16,064 bases of DNA. Origin: Flavobacteriaceae bacterium. GTDB lineage: Bacteria > Bacteroidota > Bacteroidia > Flavobacteriales > Flavobacteriaceae. A program made the position numbers and the translations under genes. The stretch lies in assembly GCA_002693605.1 (NCBI GenBank), contig NZQO01000120.1, positions 1-16,064 of the forward strand. The letters run 5' to 3'. The notes beneath the pieces were generated by a model, which saw only the letters and a list, made by a program, of their open reading frames with translations, searched no databases and had not been told where the DNA came from. Positions 3,915-16,064 of this stretch are shown in pieces; the stretch's first letter is position 1; the number at the start of each line of letters is the position of its first letter.

Positions 3915-5153
3915 CTATGCCCGGTTTGGCATTTGGAACGTAAAGACGGTGCGCTCATCATCCGATGAAGCCGTCAAAGCGCCGCCATGGCCCTTCGCGA
4001 TCTCGGTGGCGATAAACAGCCCCAATCCCAGACCTTCCCGGTTCGGCCGGTCCTTGCGGCGCTCGAAGGGAAGGAAGATATCGGGAAGCATCTCGTCGGG
4101 TATCTTCTTACCTCCATTGGCGACCGAAAGCGTGAAGGTCTCGGCGCATGCCGTGGCGCTCACCGCAATAGGCGCGCCCGACACACCGTGGGTGATCGCG
4201 TTGGCCAGAAGGTTCGAGAACATTTGGGACAGGCGCGGCACATCACAATCGACTGGCACGGGAAAATCAAACTTGGCCTCGATCGGCTGGTCGAGCGCGG
4301 TGGCTTGCAATTCGGCCACGATCTGATCCAGAGCGGGCCGAAGGTCCTCGGTCGCAGCTCTCTCGATAATGATGCCTCCGCCGTGTCGGCTGCGGGCCTG
4401 ATCCAGCAGGTTTTCGATCAACTGCCCCATACGGTTCACAGAGCCGCTCATCAGCTCCACCAGCTCATGCGCCTTGTCGTCGATCGCGCGCCGCGACATC
4501 AGGCGGAGACCTGCCTTCAACGCGTTCACGGGGTTGCGCAGATCATGGGCGAGGATCGCGATAAACTGTTCCTGAATGCGCGACAGCTCTCGCTCGTGGG
4601 CCAAAGAGGCCCGGTGGGCGGAGAGCTCTTCATCGGCATCCAGAATTTCACCGATCATCTGGGCAAAGAGCCTGAACATCGCCAGCACGCGTTCTTCCTT
4701 GAGCCTGCGGGGCTGCGGATCGATCGCACAAAGCGTGCCGAAAAATGACCCGTCTCGAAGATGAATTGGGATGGAAATATAGCCTCTGAACCCATAGCGG
4801 GCAGGGCAGTGGTGATCGACATAGGTCTCGTCAGAATGGACATCGTCGATCACGATCTCCTCATTGTGCTGCCGCACCTCGTGGCAGAGCGTGCTCTCAA
4901 CGTCCAGCTCATCCCCCGGCAGCAATCCAAAAGCGATATGATCCACCGAGCGACAGGTCACCCACCGTGTCTCGGTCACCCGCGCGACCGCCGCAAAGCC
5001 CATGCCCGTGGCCAGTGTGACAGTTTCCAGCAGGGTCAGGATCGTACTGCTTCGTCCAACCGCGTCGATGTCGGCTCGAAAATCATGTTGTCCCGCCAAC
5101 GGCTCTCTCTTTTGATCTAAAGTTGCATCCCACAACTTCTGGAGGGTAACCAA
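3915..5153 (-). CDS. GAF-domain sensor histidine kinase (soluble, orphan)
   Basis: 412 residues from a TTG at 5153. No in-frame ATG occurs until codon 51, which would cut into the GAF domain; TTG codons 7 and 19 are alternatives, the latter preceded by AAGAGAGAG. Domains: GAF sensor about 30-175, a helical linker, then the HisKA dimerisation helix with H-box ILAHDLRNPVNAL (H203 is the predicted phosphorylated histidine). The HATPase domain has N-box SNLLANAITHG (N314, N318), a degenerate G1 box (VANGG instead of DxGxG) and an intact G2 box GLGLGLFIA. There are no membrane segments, so the kinase is cytoplasmic. No response regulator is adjacent, so its partner is unknown. Cysteines 67, 90, 116 and 142 lie in the GAF region, but a cofactor role is not established. 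An IS30 element begins 150 bases upstream. Confidence 0.9.
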   Translation of the reverse strand: MVTLQKLWDATLDQKREPLAGQHDFRADIDAVGRSSTILTLLETVTLATGMGFAAVARVTETRWVTCRSVDHIAFGLLPGDELDVESTLCHEVRQHNEEIVIDDVHSDETYVDHHCPARYGFRGYISIPIHLRDGSFFGTLCAIDPQPRRLKEERVLAMFRLFAQMIGEILDADEELSAHRASLAHERELSRIQEQFIAILAHDLRNPVNALKAGLRLMSRRAIDDKAHELVELMSGSVNRMGQLIENLLDQARSRHGGGIIIERAATEDLRPALDQIVAELQATALDQPIEAKFDFPVPVDCDVPRLSQMFSNLLANAITHGVSGAPIAVSATACAETFTLSVANGGKKIPDEMLPDIFLPFERRKDRPNREGLGLGLFIATEIAKGHGGALTASSDDERTVFTFQMPNRA

Positions 5154-5342: not shown

Positions 5343-6350
5343 TCATTGCCGCTCCAGTTTCAGCAATTCATCTCTGAAAGCCTCGGCCGGAGTTCTGTAG
5401 CCCAGACATTTACGCGGGGTCGCGTTCAGACGATCGCAAAGCGACTTCAAATGTCGATTTTGGAGCGACAGCAGGGCAGTGTCCCGAGGAAGGTAGCGGC
5501 GGACCCGTTTGTTCATGTTCTCTACCGAACCTTTTTGCCAAGGCGCCTGGGGGTCACAGAACCACGCTTTTGTGCCCATGCCGTTTTGCAACTCGCGCCA
5601 GGATGTGAACTCAAACCCCCGGTCAAACGTGATGCTGCGTCGGGCTTGTGCGGGCAGGGGAGACATCTCGTCGATCAGCTTATTCATCAGAGGTCGTGAC
5701 TTGCGGTCGTTGTTGCGCAGCAGAACGGTGTAGCGTGTTTTTCGCTCCACCAACGTAGCGACGTTTGCGTTGCCCTGTGCGCGCTCAAAGATCATCAAAT
5801 CACCCTCCCAGTTGCCGAATTGGCTCCGGTCATTGATCTCGTCAGGGCGGTTATGAATGCTTGTTTCCAAGGGAAACACACGATCACGGGCTTTGCGCAC
5901 GTAACGCGGCTTCCGCTTTCTTTGGCGCTCAGGGAGGTAACGGCCGAGCTCCTGAGACTGGCCACTTTCAGAGTAAACATATTGGTAGATTGTTTCATGA
6001 CAGATCCGATATGGCGCACGTGGTTCGATCTTGAGCCGGCCTGCAATCTGTTCAGGCGACCAACCTTCCTTCAATTTGGCAATAACTTCATTGCGCAAAT
6101 CCTCATGCTGCTCCAGCTTGCGACGCTTCAAATGCCGCCGATCCGAGAGCATCTGCGCTGACAAATGCCAGTACCCATCAGCTTGAGGAACTTCGTCATC
6201 ATGCCACCAATTGCGCTTGATCTCGCGGTGGATTGTTGAGCGGTCTCGACCAAGTGTCTCAGCGATCTTTGTCTTCGTGGCCTTCGCCTGAAGCATGGTC
6301 GCCAGGATTCTACGTTCATCGAGGTTCAATTTACGATAGGGTCGTCTCAT
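5343..6350 (-). CDS. IS30-family transposase
   Basis: 335 residues from the ATG at 6350. A GTG immediately before it (6353) is possible, but AGGAGG lies five bases from the ATG and only two from the GTG. The N-terminal helix-turn-helix (LNLDERRILATML...IAETLGRDRSTIHREIKRN) is the IS30 signature that binds the terminal repeats. The catalytic DDE triad is present: D184 in NWEGDLMIF, D243 in TFDRGFEF and E277 in WQKGSVENMNKRVRRYLP. The 33-residue spacing between the second and third acidic residues is the family value. The frame is full length and uninterrupted, so the element may still be active. It is transcribed toward the histidine kinase gene. Confidence 0.97.
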   Translation of the reverse strand: MRRPYRKLNLDERRILATMLQAKATKTKIAETLGRDRSTIHREIKRNWWHDDEVPQADGYWHLSAQMLSDRRHLKRRKLEQHEDLRNEVIAKLKEGWSPEQIAGRLKIEPRAPYRICHETIYQYVYSESGQSQELGRYLPERQRKRKPRYVRKARDRVFPLETSIHNRPDEINDRSQFGNWEGDLMIFERAQGNANVATLVERKTRYTVLLRNNDRKSRPLMNKLIDEMSPLPAQARRSITFDRGFEFTSWRELQNGMGTKAWFCDPQAPWQKGSVENMNKRVRRYLPRDTALLSLQNRHLKSLCDRLNATPRKCLGYRTPAEAFRDELLKLERQ

Positions 6351-6386
6351 CACATCCTCCTGATCTGCATCAGAAAATTATCGAGT

Positions 6387-11985: not shown

Positions 11986-12007
11986 GCTGACCCACCCCCT
12001 GAAATCC

Positions 12008-12040
12008 CCCGGCTGAGCGACGCGCAGTTGCTCGGCTGGG
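12008..12040. terminator. GC-rich hairpin between secreted protein and FAD oxidoreductase
   Basis: An 11-base stem (12008-12018 with 12030-12040, two G-U pairs in RNA) closes an 11-base loop. It lies 23 bases after the stop at 11985. It has no T-run. It may end or dampen the upstream transcript before the FAD gene at 12094. Confidence 0.4.
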
Positions 12041-12093
12041 TCTGAGACCACATGCGCCGCGACCCGCGCGCGCAAAATTGGAGAAAAATTTTT

Positions 12094-13302
12094 ATGAGAG
12101 ACGTTGTTATCATCGGCGCCCGTTGCGCCGGCTCTGCGCTGGGCCTCATGCTCGCGCGCGACCATCTTGACGTGACGATTGTAGATCGCAGCACATTTCC
12201 CAGCGATACCCTCTCGGGGCATTACATTCATCCGGCCGGTGTGTCCTGCCTCAACCGCCTTGGTCTGGGCCCCGCGCTGGCGGATCTCGGCGCGCCCGCA
12301 CAAACAGAGGTGTCGGTCGATTTCGGTCCGGTCGTGCTCACCGGTCAGCCCGAGGCCGGGCCGGACGGCAATACCACCGCCTATGCCCCGCGCCGCTATA
12401 TTTTCGACCCGATGCTGGCCGAACACGCCGTCTCGGCCGGCGCGGAGCTGCGGCAAGGCGTCAGCTTTAGCGAACCCCTGATCGAGGACGGACGTGTCGT
12501 CGGCATCCGCACCCAACTGGCGAGCGGCAAGACAGAAGACATCCGCGCCCGCGTCGTGATCGGGGCCGATGGCGCCCGGTCGCGTCTCGCCAAAACGGTG
12601 GGGGCCGAACGCTATGACGTCCGCGCCGCCGAGACCTGTTTCTATTATGGCTACTGGAGCGGTGTTGATCTGACGCATCCGCGGCTGTTCATCCGCGACG
12701 GCCTGTTTGCCGTCGCCGCGCCGACCAATGACGGGTTGACCTTCATCGGCGTGGCCTGGCCCAAGGCGCTCTATTCGGATGTGCGCAAGGATGTGGACCG
12801 ATCCTACCACCGGGCCGTTGCAACCATTCCTTGGCTGGCAGACCGCCTGGCCCCCGCCAAACAGGTCGGCCGCTATGCTGGCGGCGCGCTGCTGGACGGG
12901 TTCTACCGAACCGCCTCGGGCGCAGGCTGGGCACTCTTGGGGGATGCGGGCTATCACAAGGATCCGATCACGGCGCAAGGCATGACCGACGCGTTCTTGC
13001 ATGGGGAACGCCTCGCCCGCGCGATCGCCCGTGGCCTGTCATGGGGGTCAAATCTGGACGCCGAACTGCGCCAATTCGGCCGTGAACGCGACGCCATGTC
13101 CCGCGCCATGTACGGGCTGACCTGCGACCTGAGCAGGCTGGCACCGCCGCCGCCAGACGCGATGGCCCTCATCGGCGCGCTCAAAGACAACCCAGCCCAG
13201 ACCCGCCGCTATCTCGGGGTCATCGCAGGGACCGTGGGGGTCGAAGAGTTCTTTGACCCAGAGAACCTCGCGAACATTTTGGATCAGACCGTCGCGGCCT
13301 GA
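12094..13302 (+). CDS. FAD-dependent oxidoreductase / monooxygenase (PHBH-type fold)
   Basis: 402 residues from the ATG at 12094, with GGAG ten bases upstream; a start at 12052 would only add a non-family stretch. The N-terminal dinucleotide-binding motif is the variant VVIIGARCAGSALGLMLA (G8-x-R-x-A-G13), with D31 after the second strand. The flavin-binding DG motif IGADGARSRLAK is at 157-166. The third FAD motif LLGDAGYHKDPITAQGMTDA is at 281-300, with G283-D284 and P291. This triple set defines the aromatic-hydroxylase/geranylgeranyl-reductase-like flavoprotein group. DTLSGHYIHPAGV at about 38-50 is typical of the subfamily with GARCAG. The enzyme is soluble with no signal peptide. The substrate is unknown. 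Downstream, 254 bases separate it from the sulfur operon. Confidence 0.88.
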   Translation: MRDVVIIGARCAGSALGLMLARDHLDVTIVDRSTFPSDTLSGHYIHPAGVSCLNRLGLGPALADLGAPAQTEVSVDFGPVVLTGQPEAGPDGNTTAYAPRRYIFDPMLAEHAVSAGAELRQGVSFSEPLIEDGRVVGIRTQLASGKTEDIRARVVIGADGARSRLAKTVGAERYDVRAAETCFYYGYWSGVDLTHPRLFIRDGLFAVAAPTNDGLTFIGVAWPKALYSDVRKDVDRSYHRAVATIPWLADRLAPAKQVGRYAGGALLDGFYRTASGAGWALLGDAGYHKDPITAQGMTDAFLHGERLARAIARGLSWGSNLDAELRQFGRERDAMSRAMYGLTCDLSRLAPPPPDAMALIGALKDNPAQTRRYLGVIAGTVGVEEFFDPENLANILDQTVAA

Positions 13303-13332
13303 TCCCCACATCACACCCAAACCGGGGCGCGC

Positions 13333-13355
13333 GGCGGAGGTGCAAAACCTCCGCC
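13333..13355. terminator. Strong hairpin after the FAD oxidoreductase
   Basis: GGCGGAGGT-GCAAA-ACCTCCGCC is a perfect nine-base stem with a five-base loop, 31 bases after the stop at 13302. No T-run follows (AACCCCC), so it is a terminator-like or repeat-element stem. It separates the FAD gene from the sulfur operon. Confidence 0.55.
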
Positions 13356-13382
13356 AACCCCCACCAACTCCCCTGCCCCACG

Positions 13383-13398
13383 CCAAAGGAACCTTTGG
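13383..13398. repeat. CCAAAGG-AA-CCTTTGG inverted repeat
   Basis: Perfect seven-base arms with a two-base centre, 28 bases after the previous hairpin. A further CCAAAGG follows nearby within CGCCAAAGGAGG (about 13421-13427). It may be part of an intergenic repeat element. No known site is recognised. Confidence 0.45.
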
Positions 13399-13482
13399 GC
13401 GCGCTCCCCGGTTGATCCGCCAAAGGAGGGGGATTGCTGCGGGCCGCCGGGTCTGCGCGCGCCACGCTTGTGCACAGCACTC

Positions 13483-13502
13483 ATATTCACATCCTTGAAT
13501 AT
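13483..13502. promoter_or_regulatory. SqrR/BigR-type operator, ATTC-N8-GAAT
   Basis: ATATTCA-CATCCT-TGAATAT is a perfect inverted repeat. Its core ATTC (13485-13488) and GAAT (13497-13500) are eight bases apart, which is the consensus I recall for the persulfide-sensing ArsR-family repressor SqrR of Rhodobacter. It lies 54 bases before the first gene of the sulfur operon. A -10-like TATTAT at 13500-13505 overlaps its right arm, so bound repressor would block the promoter. Match and position are seen; the identity of the regulator is inferred, because no ArsR gene is in the window. Confidence 0.78.
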
Positions 13503-13556
13503 TATGTGGGAGGACTACATTGTGCTCCACGCACCCGCGTCAAAAGGAGTTGGGAT

Positions 13557-13991
13557 ATGGAAACCGAATTCACCCCGTGGCTGTCGCTTGGCGGCGGCAT
13601 GATGATCGGGGCCTCGGCCGTGCTGCTGATGGCCACCAACGGTCGCATCGCCGGGATCAGCGGCCTGACCTCCAAACTCTTTGCCCGCGACAGCGATGGC
13701 GAGGCCCGAGGCATCGCAGCGCTCTTTGTGCTGGGTCTGCTGCTGGCCGCGCCGCTCTGGCTCTTTGTGTCGGGGGGCTGGCCGCAACAATGGGTGCCGT
13801 CGAACCCTCTCCTCATGGGTCTCGCCGGCCTGCTGGTCGGCTTCGGCGCGACCTATGGCAACGGCTGCACCTCGGGCCATGGCGTCTGCGGCATCAGCCG
13901 CGGCTCGGCGCGCTCGATCGTGGCGACCCTCACCTTCATGGCCACCGCCTTTGCCACTGTTTTCATCCTGCGCCATGTGATCGGAGCCTGA
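13557..13991 (+). CDS. YeeE/YedE-type membrane protein (sulfur-compound transport), first half
   Basis: 144 residues from the ATG at 13557, with AGGAG seven bases upstream; the frame is open further upstream, but that part overlaps the operator. About four membrane helices are visible. The YeeE/DUF395 signature GATYGNGCTSGHGVCGISRGS is at about 97-117 with C104 and C111. In characterised YeeE, conserved cysteines line the path of thiosulfate. This is a half-size protein that pairs with the next gene, as in PmpA/PmpB-like pairs. It probably moves a reduced sulfur species across the inner membrane; direction and substrate are not proven. It is the first gene of a four-gene operon behind the SqrR/BigR-like operator. 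Confidence 0.92.
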   Translation: METEFTPWLSLGGGMMIGASAVLLMATNGRIAGISGLTSKLFARDSDGEARGIAALFVLGLLLAAPLWLFVSGGWPQQWVPSNPLLMGLAGLLVGFGATYGNGCTSGHGVCGISRGSARSIVATLTFMATAFATVFILRHVIGA

Positions 13992-13992
13992 G

Positions 13993-14433
13993 ATGAAACA
14001 GATCTTCGCCCTTCTCTCCGGCCTCCTCTTCGGCCTCGGCCTGATCGTGTCGGGCATGGCCGATCCGGCCAAGGTCCTCAACTTTCTCGACCTCTTCGGA
14101 AACTGGGATCCGAGCCTCGCCTTCGTGATGGGCGGTGCCATCGCGGTGACCGCCCCGGGATTTGCCCTGCTCTTCGCAAACCGGCAAACCCCCTATTTCG
14201 ATCAGAAATTCCGCCTGCCCACCCGCAGTGATCTCGAACCGAAACTGATCACCGGCGCGGCGCTCTTCGGCATTGGCTGGGGGCTCGGGGGCTTTTGCCC
14301 CGGACCGGCGCTGACCGCCCTGCCCCTCGCGGCCAGCGGCACGCTGATCTTCGTGCCCGCCATGCTCATCGGCATGTGGGCCGCCCGCCATACACCCGAC
14401 CTGACCCCGACCGCGAAAGAAGGAGCCACCTGA
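13993..14433 (+). CDS. YeeE/YedE-type membrane protein (DUF6691-like), second half
   Basis: 146 residues, starting one base after the previous stop (TGAGATG), so the two are translationally coupled. It has about four hydrophobic helices. The second-half signature GIGWGLGGFCPGPALTAL is at about 93-110 with C102. The opening (LLFGLGLIVSGMADPAKVLNFLDLFGNWDPSL) is typical of the partner protein in two-gene YeeE systems. Together with the preceding protein it would form one full transporter. Its stop overlaps the next start by one base (TGATG). Confidence 0.92.
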   Translation: MKQIFALLSGLLFGLGLIVSGMADPAKVLNFLDLFGNWDPSLAFVMGGAIAVTAPGFALLFANRQTPYFDQKFRLPTRSDLEPKLITGAALFGIGWGLGGFCPGPALTALPLAASGTLIFVPAMLIGMWAARHTPDLTPTAKEGAT

Positions 14434-15350
14434 TGAGCGACCCTCTGAACAGCCCCGTCGTGCGCCATTCCCCGTCCAGCGGCCCGAACAGCCCCGATGT
14501 CTGGGGCATCTACGAGCCTGACACCGGCTCGATCCAATACATCTGCGCCGATCCGATCACCAAGAAGGCCGCGCTGATCGACGTGGTGTGGAATTTCGAC
14601 CCGAAAAACTATCGCTTCTCGCAGGAGAGCATGGATCAGGTGCTGGACCTTGTGGCCGAGAACGGCCTCACCGTGGACTGGGTGCTCGACACGCATCCCC
14701 ATGCGGATCACGTCATGGCCTCCGCCCATCTCAAGGCGCGCACCGGGGCGCCCAACGCCATCGGCGCGCTGGTGCCCGAGATCGCCAAGATCTGGGCCGA
14801 TCTCTACAACCTGCCAGAGGCCTTTGACCCGGATCGCGATTTTGACCGCCTGTTCCAAGAAGGCGAGAGCTTCAAGATCGGCGATCTGGACGTCAAGATC
14901 ATGCTCTCGCCCGGCCATACCCTGGGGTCGATCACCTATGTCTGCGGCGACGCCGCCTTTGTCCATGACACCTTGATGCAGCCCGATGCGGGCACCTCGC
15001 GGTCGGATTTCCCCGGCGGCAAGACGCATGAGCTCTGGGACTCGATCCAAGACATCCTCGCCCTGCCCGGCCACACCCGGCTTTTCATCGGCCATGACTA
15101 CGGCACGGACAACCGCAAAGAGCCGATGTGGGAGGCCACGGTCGACACCCACAAGGCGCAGAACATCCACGTCAAGGACGGCACCAAGCGCGAAGACTTC
15201 ATCGAACGCCGCCAAAAGCGCGACGCGACGCTGGCCTTGCCGAACCGCATTCTCGCGGCCTTGCAGATCAACCTGCGCGGCGGACGCCTGCCCCCGGCCG
15301 AAGAGGACGGGAACCACTATCTCAAGCTGCCCGTAAACCGCTTCGACTAA
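14433..15350 (+). CDS. blh: Persulfide dioxygenase-like metallo-beta-lactamase-fold protein (Blh type)
   Basis: 305 residues from the ATG at 14433, with AAGGAG eight bases upstream; a longer open frame overlaps the previous gene and is not used. The metal site is complete: THPHADH (H88, H90, D92, H93), GHTLGS (H162), VHDTL (D179) and FIGHDYG (H221). In the ETHE1/persulfide dioxygenase group, a mononuclear iron uses the first His, the second-site His and the Asp to oxidise glutathione persulfide to sulfite. The C-terminal EDGNHYLKLPVN ending and the 305-residue length fit the Blh branch found in bigR operons. No rhodanese domain is attached. It is cytoplasmic with no signal peptide. Glyoxalase II and true beta-lactamase are unlikely given the operon. 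The symbol is assigned by operon type and family resemblance. Confidence 0.85.
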   Translation: MSDPLNSPVVRHSPSSGPNSPDVWGIYEPDTGSIQYICADPITKKAALIDVVWNFDPKNYRFSQESMDQVLDLVAENGLTVDWVLDTHPHADHVMASAHLKARTGAPNAIGALVPEIAKIWADLYNLPEAFDPDRDFDRLFQEGESFKIGDLDVKIMLSPGHTLGSITYVCGDAAFVHDTLMQPDAGTSRSDFPGGKTHELWDSIQDILALPGHTRLFIGHDYGTDNRKEPMWEATVDTHKAQNIHVKDGTKREDFIERRQKRDATLALPNRILAALQINLRGGRLPPAEEDGNHYLKLPVNRFD

Positions 15351-15357
15351 GCCAGAG

Positions 15358-16064
15358 ATGACCCTCCCTCCGCTCGCGCGATATCTGCCGATCCTCGACT
15401 GGGGACGGCGCTATGACCGGGGCAAGTTCACCGGCGACATGGTGGCGGCCGTGATCGTCACCATCATGCTGATCCCGCAATCGCTGGCCTATGCGCTGCT
15501 GGCCGGGATGCCTGCCGAGGCGGGGATCTATGCCTCCATCGCCCCCATCGTGCTCCACGCGATCTTCGGCACCAGCCGGGCGCTGGCGGTGGGGCCGGTC
15601 GCGGTGGTCTCGCTGATGACGGCGGCGGCCTTGGGCAATATCGCGGCCAGCGGCACCGCGGGCTATGTCACGGCGGCGCTTACACTGGCTTTTCTCTCGG
15701 GGGCGATCCTGCTGGCGCTCGGGCTGCTTCGGCTGGGGTTCTTGGCGAATTTCCTGTCGCACCCGGTCATCGCGGGCTTCATCACCGCGTCGGGCATCCT
15801 CATCGCGGCGAGCCAGCTGCGCCATATTCTGGGGATCGAGGCCGAGGGCCACACGCTGGTCACGATCCTCGCCAGCCTCTGGGCGCATCTGGGCGAGGTC
15901 AACCTGATCACCCTGCTGCTCGGCGTCACGGCCACGGCATTTCTGTTCTGGATCCGCCGCGGGCTCAAGCCCCTGCTGCGCCGCGCCGGGCTGTATCTGG
16001 CGGCGCTCATGATCCTGCTCTGGTCCGCCTCGCCCTTCGTGTGGCAGTTCGCGACCTCGTTCCA
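15358..16064 (+). CDS. SulP-family anion transporter, N-terminal part
   Basis: Partial: starts at 15358, seven bases after the previous stop, and runs 235 codons to the window end. The opening LARYLPILDWGRRYDRGKFTGD and the following VIVTIMLIPQSLAYALLAGM are the SLC26/SulP signature. HPVIAGFITASGILIAASQ, at about 140, is the second conserved block. Several membrane helices are visible; the C-terminal STAS domain would lie beyond the window. SulP proteins carry sulfate, bicarbonate or other anions. Downstream of a persulfide dioxygenase, transport of sulfite or sulfate is the natural inference. Confidence 0.93.
   Translation, partial: MTLPPLARYLPILDWGRRYDRGKFTGDMVAAVIVTIMLIPQSLAYALLAGMPAEAGIYASIAPIVLHAIFGTSRALAVGPVAVVSLMTAAALGNIAASGTAGYVTAALTLAFLSGAILLALGLLRLGFLANFLSHPVIAGFITASGILIAASQLRHILGIEAEGHTLVTILASLWAHLGEVNLITLLLGVTATAFLFWIRRGLKPLLRRAGLYLAALMILLWSASPFVWQFATSF

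Follow-up and report, generated by a model that had tools for sequence, protein, structure and literature searches.

A conserved candidate operator ahead of a persulfide dioxygenase operon that lacks the divergent ArsR-type regulator gene of its relatives

The window (the whole stretch of 16,064 nucleotides analysed here) carries, ahead of a predicted sulfane-sulfur operon, a perfect inverted repeat that is conserved before orthologous operons in relatives. In those relatives the repeat is linked to a divergent gene for a two-cysteine ArsR-type regulator, and this gene is absent from the window. The best explanation, with a probability of about three in four, is that the repeat was inherited as the operator of a dedicated ArsR-type repressor with two cysteines, that the repressor gene has been lost or moved here, and that the site is most likely used in trans. 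The relevant features are as follows.

12094 to 13302, plus strand: FAD-dependent oxidoreductase gene (PF01494), on the side that the regulator gene occupies in relatives
13482 to 13484, minus strand: CAT, letters as at the divergent regulator start in 25 of 34 relatives
13483 to 13502, no strand: candidate operator O1, ATATTC-N8-GAATAT in 12 of 12 letters, a perfect 7+7 inverted repeat, conserved
13495 to 13500, plus strand: TTGAAT within O1, putative -35 box (a guess based on relatives)
13499 to 13518, no strand: weaker second site O2, 9 of 12 letters, overlapping O1 (10 to 11 of 12 in seven relatives of the same clade)
13518 to 13523, plus strand: CATTGT, place of a putative -10 box 17 nucleotides further on, 3 of 6 letters of TATAAT
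13544 to 13549, plus strand: AAGGAG, probable ribosome-binding site for the first gene, picked by eye
13557 to 13991, plus strand: first YeeE-type half transporter gene (PF04143, Sulf_transp; 144 amino acids)
13993 to 14433, plus strand: second YeeE-type half transporter gene (PF20398, DUF6691; 146 amino acids)
14433 to 15350, plus strand: persulfide/sulfur dioxygenase gene, metallo-beta-lactamase fold, Blh-like C-terminal part only (305 amino acids)
15358 to 16064, plus strand: SulP family anion transporter gene, running past the window end

The genes downstream of O1 follow the arrangement of BigR-type yeeE-yedE-pdo operons, with two YeeE-type genes and then the dioxygenase gene. An earlier note, made from the letters alone, had described a YeeE-YeeE-Blh-SulP operon; its gene order holds, but the name Blh fits the dioxygenase part only. 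The protein scores 406 bits against the Blh model NF040641, short of the cut-off of 625, and matches positions 140-423 only, so it lacks the sulfur-transferase half.

O1 consists of the arms ATATTCA (13483-13489) and TGAATAT (13496-13502) around the spacer CATCCT (ATATTCA-N6-TGAATAT), and its ATTC-N8-GAAT core (13485-13500) is the sole match to that pattern within the window. When re-measured, the repeat, its core and the gap of 54 bases (13503-13556) before the ATG of the first gene at 13557 lay where the earlier note had put them. The TATTAT that it had read as a -10-like box does overlap the repeat (13500-13505), but was rejected as a -10 box; no recognisable -35 box accompanies it, and a promoter scan of 13250-13700 found none. 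By itself, without conservation, the repeat is weak evidence: ATTC-N8-GAAT is expected 0.26 times per window by chance and was present in 47 of 200 shuffles, and at least one perfect 7+7 repeat (loop 0-10) occurred in 19.6% of 1000 shuffles of 13303-13556, a region whose actual sequence contains five such pairs, of which three belong to one GC hairpin. The repeat is taken as real because it is conserved in relatives, not because it is improbable by chance. A GC-rich hairpin without a T run was also observed 3' of the FAD gene (13333-13355); it is perhaps that gene's terminator, though no terminator was called by the scan for such elements.

When named genomes were scanned with the dioxygenase, 151 relatives came up, and the best 80 of the 151 loci, mostly from Rhodobacteraceae sensu lato, were kept. 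The first gene of the operon is more than 70% identical in 36 of these, 48-57% identical in 33 and absent in 11. Two of the 36 (L031 and L049) were dropped because of contig ends, leaving 34 relatives which, with the window, make 35 operons. Scored at the best place in the 135 bases that precede the first gene, a site with at least 10 of the 12 letters of ATATTC-N8-GAATAT, at O1 or at the overlapping O2, is present in 33/34 relatives (34/35 with the window), rows that are partly non-independent since identical proteins occur in L029 and L030 and in L051-L053. Among 1750 shuffled controls none exceeded 10 of 12, and 1.4% reached 10. Conservation before orthologous operons, one of the two tests on which the earlier note had staked its reading beforehand, is borne out by these counts. 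The best-scoring place is O1 in most operons and O2, offset from O1 by 16 bases, in a few (e.g. L039, L054 and L055); the sole exception among the 35 operons is L048, with 6 of 12. Across 32 genomes the exact ATATTC-N8-GAATAT was counted 10 times, seven at these operons and three elsewhere (L106, L107 and L109), and ATATTM-N8-GAATAT occurs at 18 places in 11 relatives' genomes picked from the 32, with 15 of the 18 at these operons. Being nearly unique per genome, the site looks, from these pattern counts, like a one-operon switch. Among the 33 distant operons just one (L092) reaches 10 of 12 within 200 bases, and 30 carry a divergent ArsR-type regulator of their own, which in one of the 30 is cut by a contig end. 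Another sequence, often ATATTAG-N-TTGACT-GATTT, was noticed about 100 bases upstream in this second group (L058, L070 and similar).

In 32 of the 34 relatives (32 of 35 operons with the window) the operator coincides with or adjoins the start of a divergent ArsR-type gene, and in 25 of the 34 that gene's reversed start codon, CAT, overlaps the operator's first two bases. The earlier note had supposed a regulator encoded away from its operator, which as a general layout is contradicted by this arrangement. The same regulator and site stand ahead of the dioxygenase in L056 and L065, which have no YeeE genes. By a simple pattern, all 34 such regulators carry both cysteines of SqrR/BigR-type sensors, and a sensing role of these two residues in such ArsR regulators is described in the consulted parts of two papers (PMC9774250; PMC10451225). 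Against solved structures, one relative's regulator, the single protein tested, scored 78.3 bits with HlyU, 65.7 with the entries taken to be SqrR and 63.5 with BigR; with HlyU closest, its identification as a SqrR ortholog was rejected, the SqrR-like protein being a separate paralog. Identification as the BigR equivalog was likewise rejected, as two relatives' regulators reached 76.1 and 74.0 bits against NF040642 (cut-off 155), a model that found matches in 32/32 genomes and exceeded its cut-off in 0/32. Of the SqrR/BigR-type operator first proposed, there survives an operator-like element linked to a two-cysteine ArsR-type gene in relatives. The kind of element was thus named correctly, but the relatives' regulator is not the SqrR-like protein and lies far under the BigR cut-off. 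The consensus ATTC-N8-GAAT, which the earlier note had invoked, is in print as the deduced site of Rhodobacter capsulatus SqrR, cited as such in a portion of PMC9774250 that also describes binding of YgaV to a promoter without this motif.

On the regulator's side of O1 the window has the FAD gene, for which no match (E ≤ 1e-8) was found in the loci of the 80 relatives (up to 6 kb of flank, some cut by contig ends). No ArsR-type regulator like that of the relatives was found in the window at E 1e-4, no ArsR domain in ten other window ORFs tested, and a search of 12001-13700 for a regulator remnant returned chance-level matches only (best E 0.12). The CAT at 13482-13484 opens an unrelated frame in the window (MSAVHK...). 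In the tree the window falls in an eight-row, mostly Sulfitobacter clade (support 95/86), whose other seven rows comprise six titled Sulfitobacter and one titled Nocardioides. Because all seven of these relatives have the regulator, it was lost or moved on the window's lineage, unless the contig is chimeric; it is possible that the gene moved beyond sulP, past the window end. The row titled Nocardioides marinus (L024), whose operon resembles those of Sulfitobacter and groups among them, is probably a mislabelled or contaminated record. Two other operons have no adjacent regulator: that of Pontibaca salina (L055), which is the same operon with both sites kept (10 and 11 of 12), and that of L048, which has no site. 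The L055 sites lie at 5029-5064, and the ORF upstream of them looks transporter-like by eye. Elsewhere in the window, a transposase-like ORF (5343-6353, minus strand) has HTH_38 and an integrase core, and is presumably IS30-like.

The remaining leader of the window differs from those of its clade. Measured start to start, O1 lies 74 bases from the first gene, compared with 96-103 bases in clade relatives, which makes the leader 22-29 bases shorter. Outside O1 its alignment with nine relatives' leaders is modest (equalled by between 3 and 185 of 500 shuffles) and best at the ribosome-binding end; some alignments beat nearly all shuffles (3-4 of 500 as good), and the contrast of an intact O1 with a changed leader is a matter of degree. 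O1 itself is an ATATTC version with 12 of 12 letters, whereas the seven clade relatives have ATATTA versions with 11 of 12. In these seven relatives it is plausible, judging from the letters, that TTGAAT in O1 and the -10-like box 17 nucleotides on constitute a promoter under both sites. The box matches TATAAT in 3-5 of 6 letters there, and a clear decay of the window's -10 position was dropped as a claim, two of the seven being equally low (3 of 6). With this promoter guessed from relatives, the site 54 bases ahead of the persulfide operon might show the promoter overlap of a SqrR/BigR-type operator.

From these observations we infer a scheme in which a dedicated repressor of the SqrR/BigR/HlyU sort would control yeeE1-yeeE2-dioxygenase-sulP as a sulfane-sulfur operon. 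Ancestrally, the repressor gene would start at the operator and run the opposite way, and because of this divergent start one site could serve both directions; O2 would overlap O1 over the presumed promoter. In the present contig the regulator gene would have been lost or moved, the break falling no more than a few bases from O1, which itself would have stayed intact while the remaining leader changed. The repressor acting on O1 in trans would be either a moved copy or the SqrR-like paralog. Persulfide would link its two cysteines, upon which the repressor would leave O1 (in relatives also O2) and the operon would open, allowing sulfane-sulfur import and oxidation. We lean to control in trans because O1 is fully intact while its surroundings have changed.

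It is possible, but doubtful, that control has passed specifically to the SqrR-like paralog through recognition of a similar ATTC-N8-GAAT. The paralog occurs in the genomes of six of the seven clade relatives, a distribution consistent with such a transfer, but none was shown in the seventh (G009). A Sulfitobacter representative (L118) is closest to SqrR, at 129.9 bits and E 3e-37 to 6o8l and its kin, entries titled only 'ArsR family' that we take to be R. capsulatus SqrR; it adjoins thioredoxin-like and CcdA-like ORFs, which on inspection look like a sox cluster. Upstream of the SqrR-like gene group, L114 has a full ATTC-N8-GAAT (954-969) and L115, L121 and L126 have 7 of its 8 letters, which would suit a regulator of this specificity, but among the 17 SqrR-like regulator loci scanned these four are the only ones with at least 7 of 8 at that place (L110 has a site elsewhere, and 12 have none). 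A stretch common to L117 and L118, CATATTCAAATTACGTTGA, was also noted and does not have the ATTC-N8-GAAT spacing. A more specific history, in which the dedicated repressor was lost and the operator was kept and sharpened (ATATTA to ATATTC) because the SqrR-like repressor took over, is decidedly unlikely. If true, a takeover by the paralog would have turned a switch for a single operon into a wider regulon for sulfur oxidation.

Use of O1 in trans also has to be weighed against the unlikely case of a relic, in which the repressor was lost, O1 is unbound and the operon is constitutive or on a new promoter. The absence of the regulator gene and of any remnant agrees with a relic; the weaker O2, down to 9 of 12 from the values in the seven clade relatives, fits decay after repressor loss; and L048, also without an adjacent regulator, has no site. 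A relic accords poorly with an O1 that at 12 of 12 stands above the 11 of 12 of clade relatives though the surrounding leader has changed, and with L055, which keeps both of its sites without an adjacent gene.

The third alternative, a metagenomic chimera in which the true genome would have the regulator at the operator, the FAD side having been joined in error, is very unlikely. The contig (C121 of its bin) has 63% G+C, compared with 42-50% in 17 of 20 sampled bin contigs, and its tetranucleotide signature correlates at r 0.84-0.91 with 11 Rhodobacteraceae loci and at 0.24-0.47 with 18 of the 20 sampled contigs; the remaining two (C1 and C49) are also Rhodobacteraceae-like (0.83 and 0.90). 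Of 39 relatives of the bin that were sampled, none has a dioxygenase ortholog, and 34 gave weak matches (best 42 bits, vs 712.6 for the protein's own score). The contig is most likely foreign to its bin, that is, misbinned, and the bin mixed. In the bin, 68% complete and probably not the source genome, neither the BigR model nor the relatives' regulator found a match, and PF01022 gave four weak ones; because the contig is probably misbinned, this absence is uninformative on the source organism, and so on the other test of the earlier note, presence of a homologue in the genome. In the same bin, probably foreign to the window, ATTC-N8-GAAT occurs at 61 places (20 for a reversed-pattern control) and ATATTM-N8-GAATAT at seven, the window's included. 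A mixed bin and a break within bases of O1 are both compatible with a misjoin. So is the junction of FAD gene and operator, which is not spanned by the matches listed in 295 sampled genomes of the family to which the L020 genome belongs (two candidates scored per genome); among 25 of 251 matches listed from plasmid records, where relatives of the operon are present, none reaches the FAD side. The tetranucleotide signature and G+C content are nevertheless alike across all four quarters of the window, and the leader downstream of O1 differs as well, which a simple upstream misjoin would not explain. The last alternative, a chance AT-rich palindrome with no regulatory history, is given practically no weight: about one in five intergenic shuffles holds some perfect 7+7 repeat, but the sequence and its place are kept in 33/34 relatives, which already contradicts that reading.

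The preferred reading, an inherited operator most likely used in trans, supplies the persulfide-dioxygenase operons of marine roseobacters with a precise candidate operator that has an overlapping second site and abuts the regulator's start codon. Among the papers listed in the literature searches none deals with this operator in roseobacters. The window and P. salina, in both of which the regulator is gone and the operator kept, would provide a small natural test of sensor replacement between persulfide-sensing paralogs.

The kind of system is already known. In Acinetobacter baumannii, BigR controls yeeE-yedE-pdo2 (PMC7315123, in the part consulted), and the two YeeE-type proteins and the persulfide dioxygenase are common to both operons, as is a two-cysteine ArsR repressor in the window's relatives; the window adds sulP, and its regulator gene is missing on the operator's side. 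With the bigR/Blh operon of Xylella and Agrobacterium it would share BigR-type control of a sulfur dioxygenase, but Blh is there a sulfur transferase/dioxygenase, whereas the window protein corresponds to profile positions 140-423 only (PMC5823870, as far as excerpted). YedE1E2 is a zero-valent sulfur importer, and paired YeeE/YedE genes lie upstream of blh in Agrobacterium (PMC10812762, from the portion available); the window likewise has a pair, for which transport is putative. With R. capsulatus SqrR, which loses DNA binding through a polysulfide bridge (PMC9774250, in the section consulted), the eight core letters and their spacing are identical and a two-cysteine ArsR regulator is common, but the operator-linked regulator of the window's relatives is a paralog, and their SqrR-like protein is encoded elsewhere. 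Relative to these systems, a regulator that is gone and an operator that is kept amount to a modest twist.
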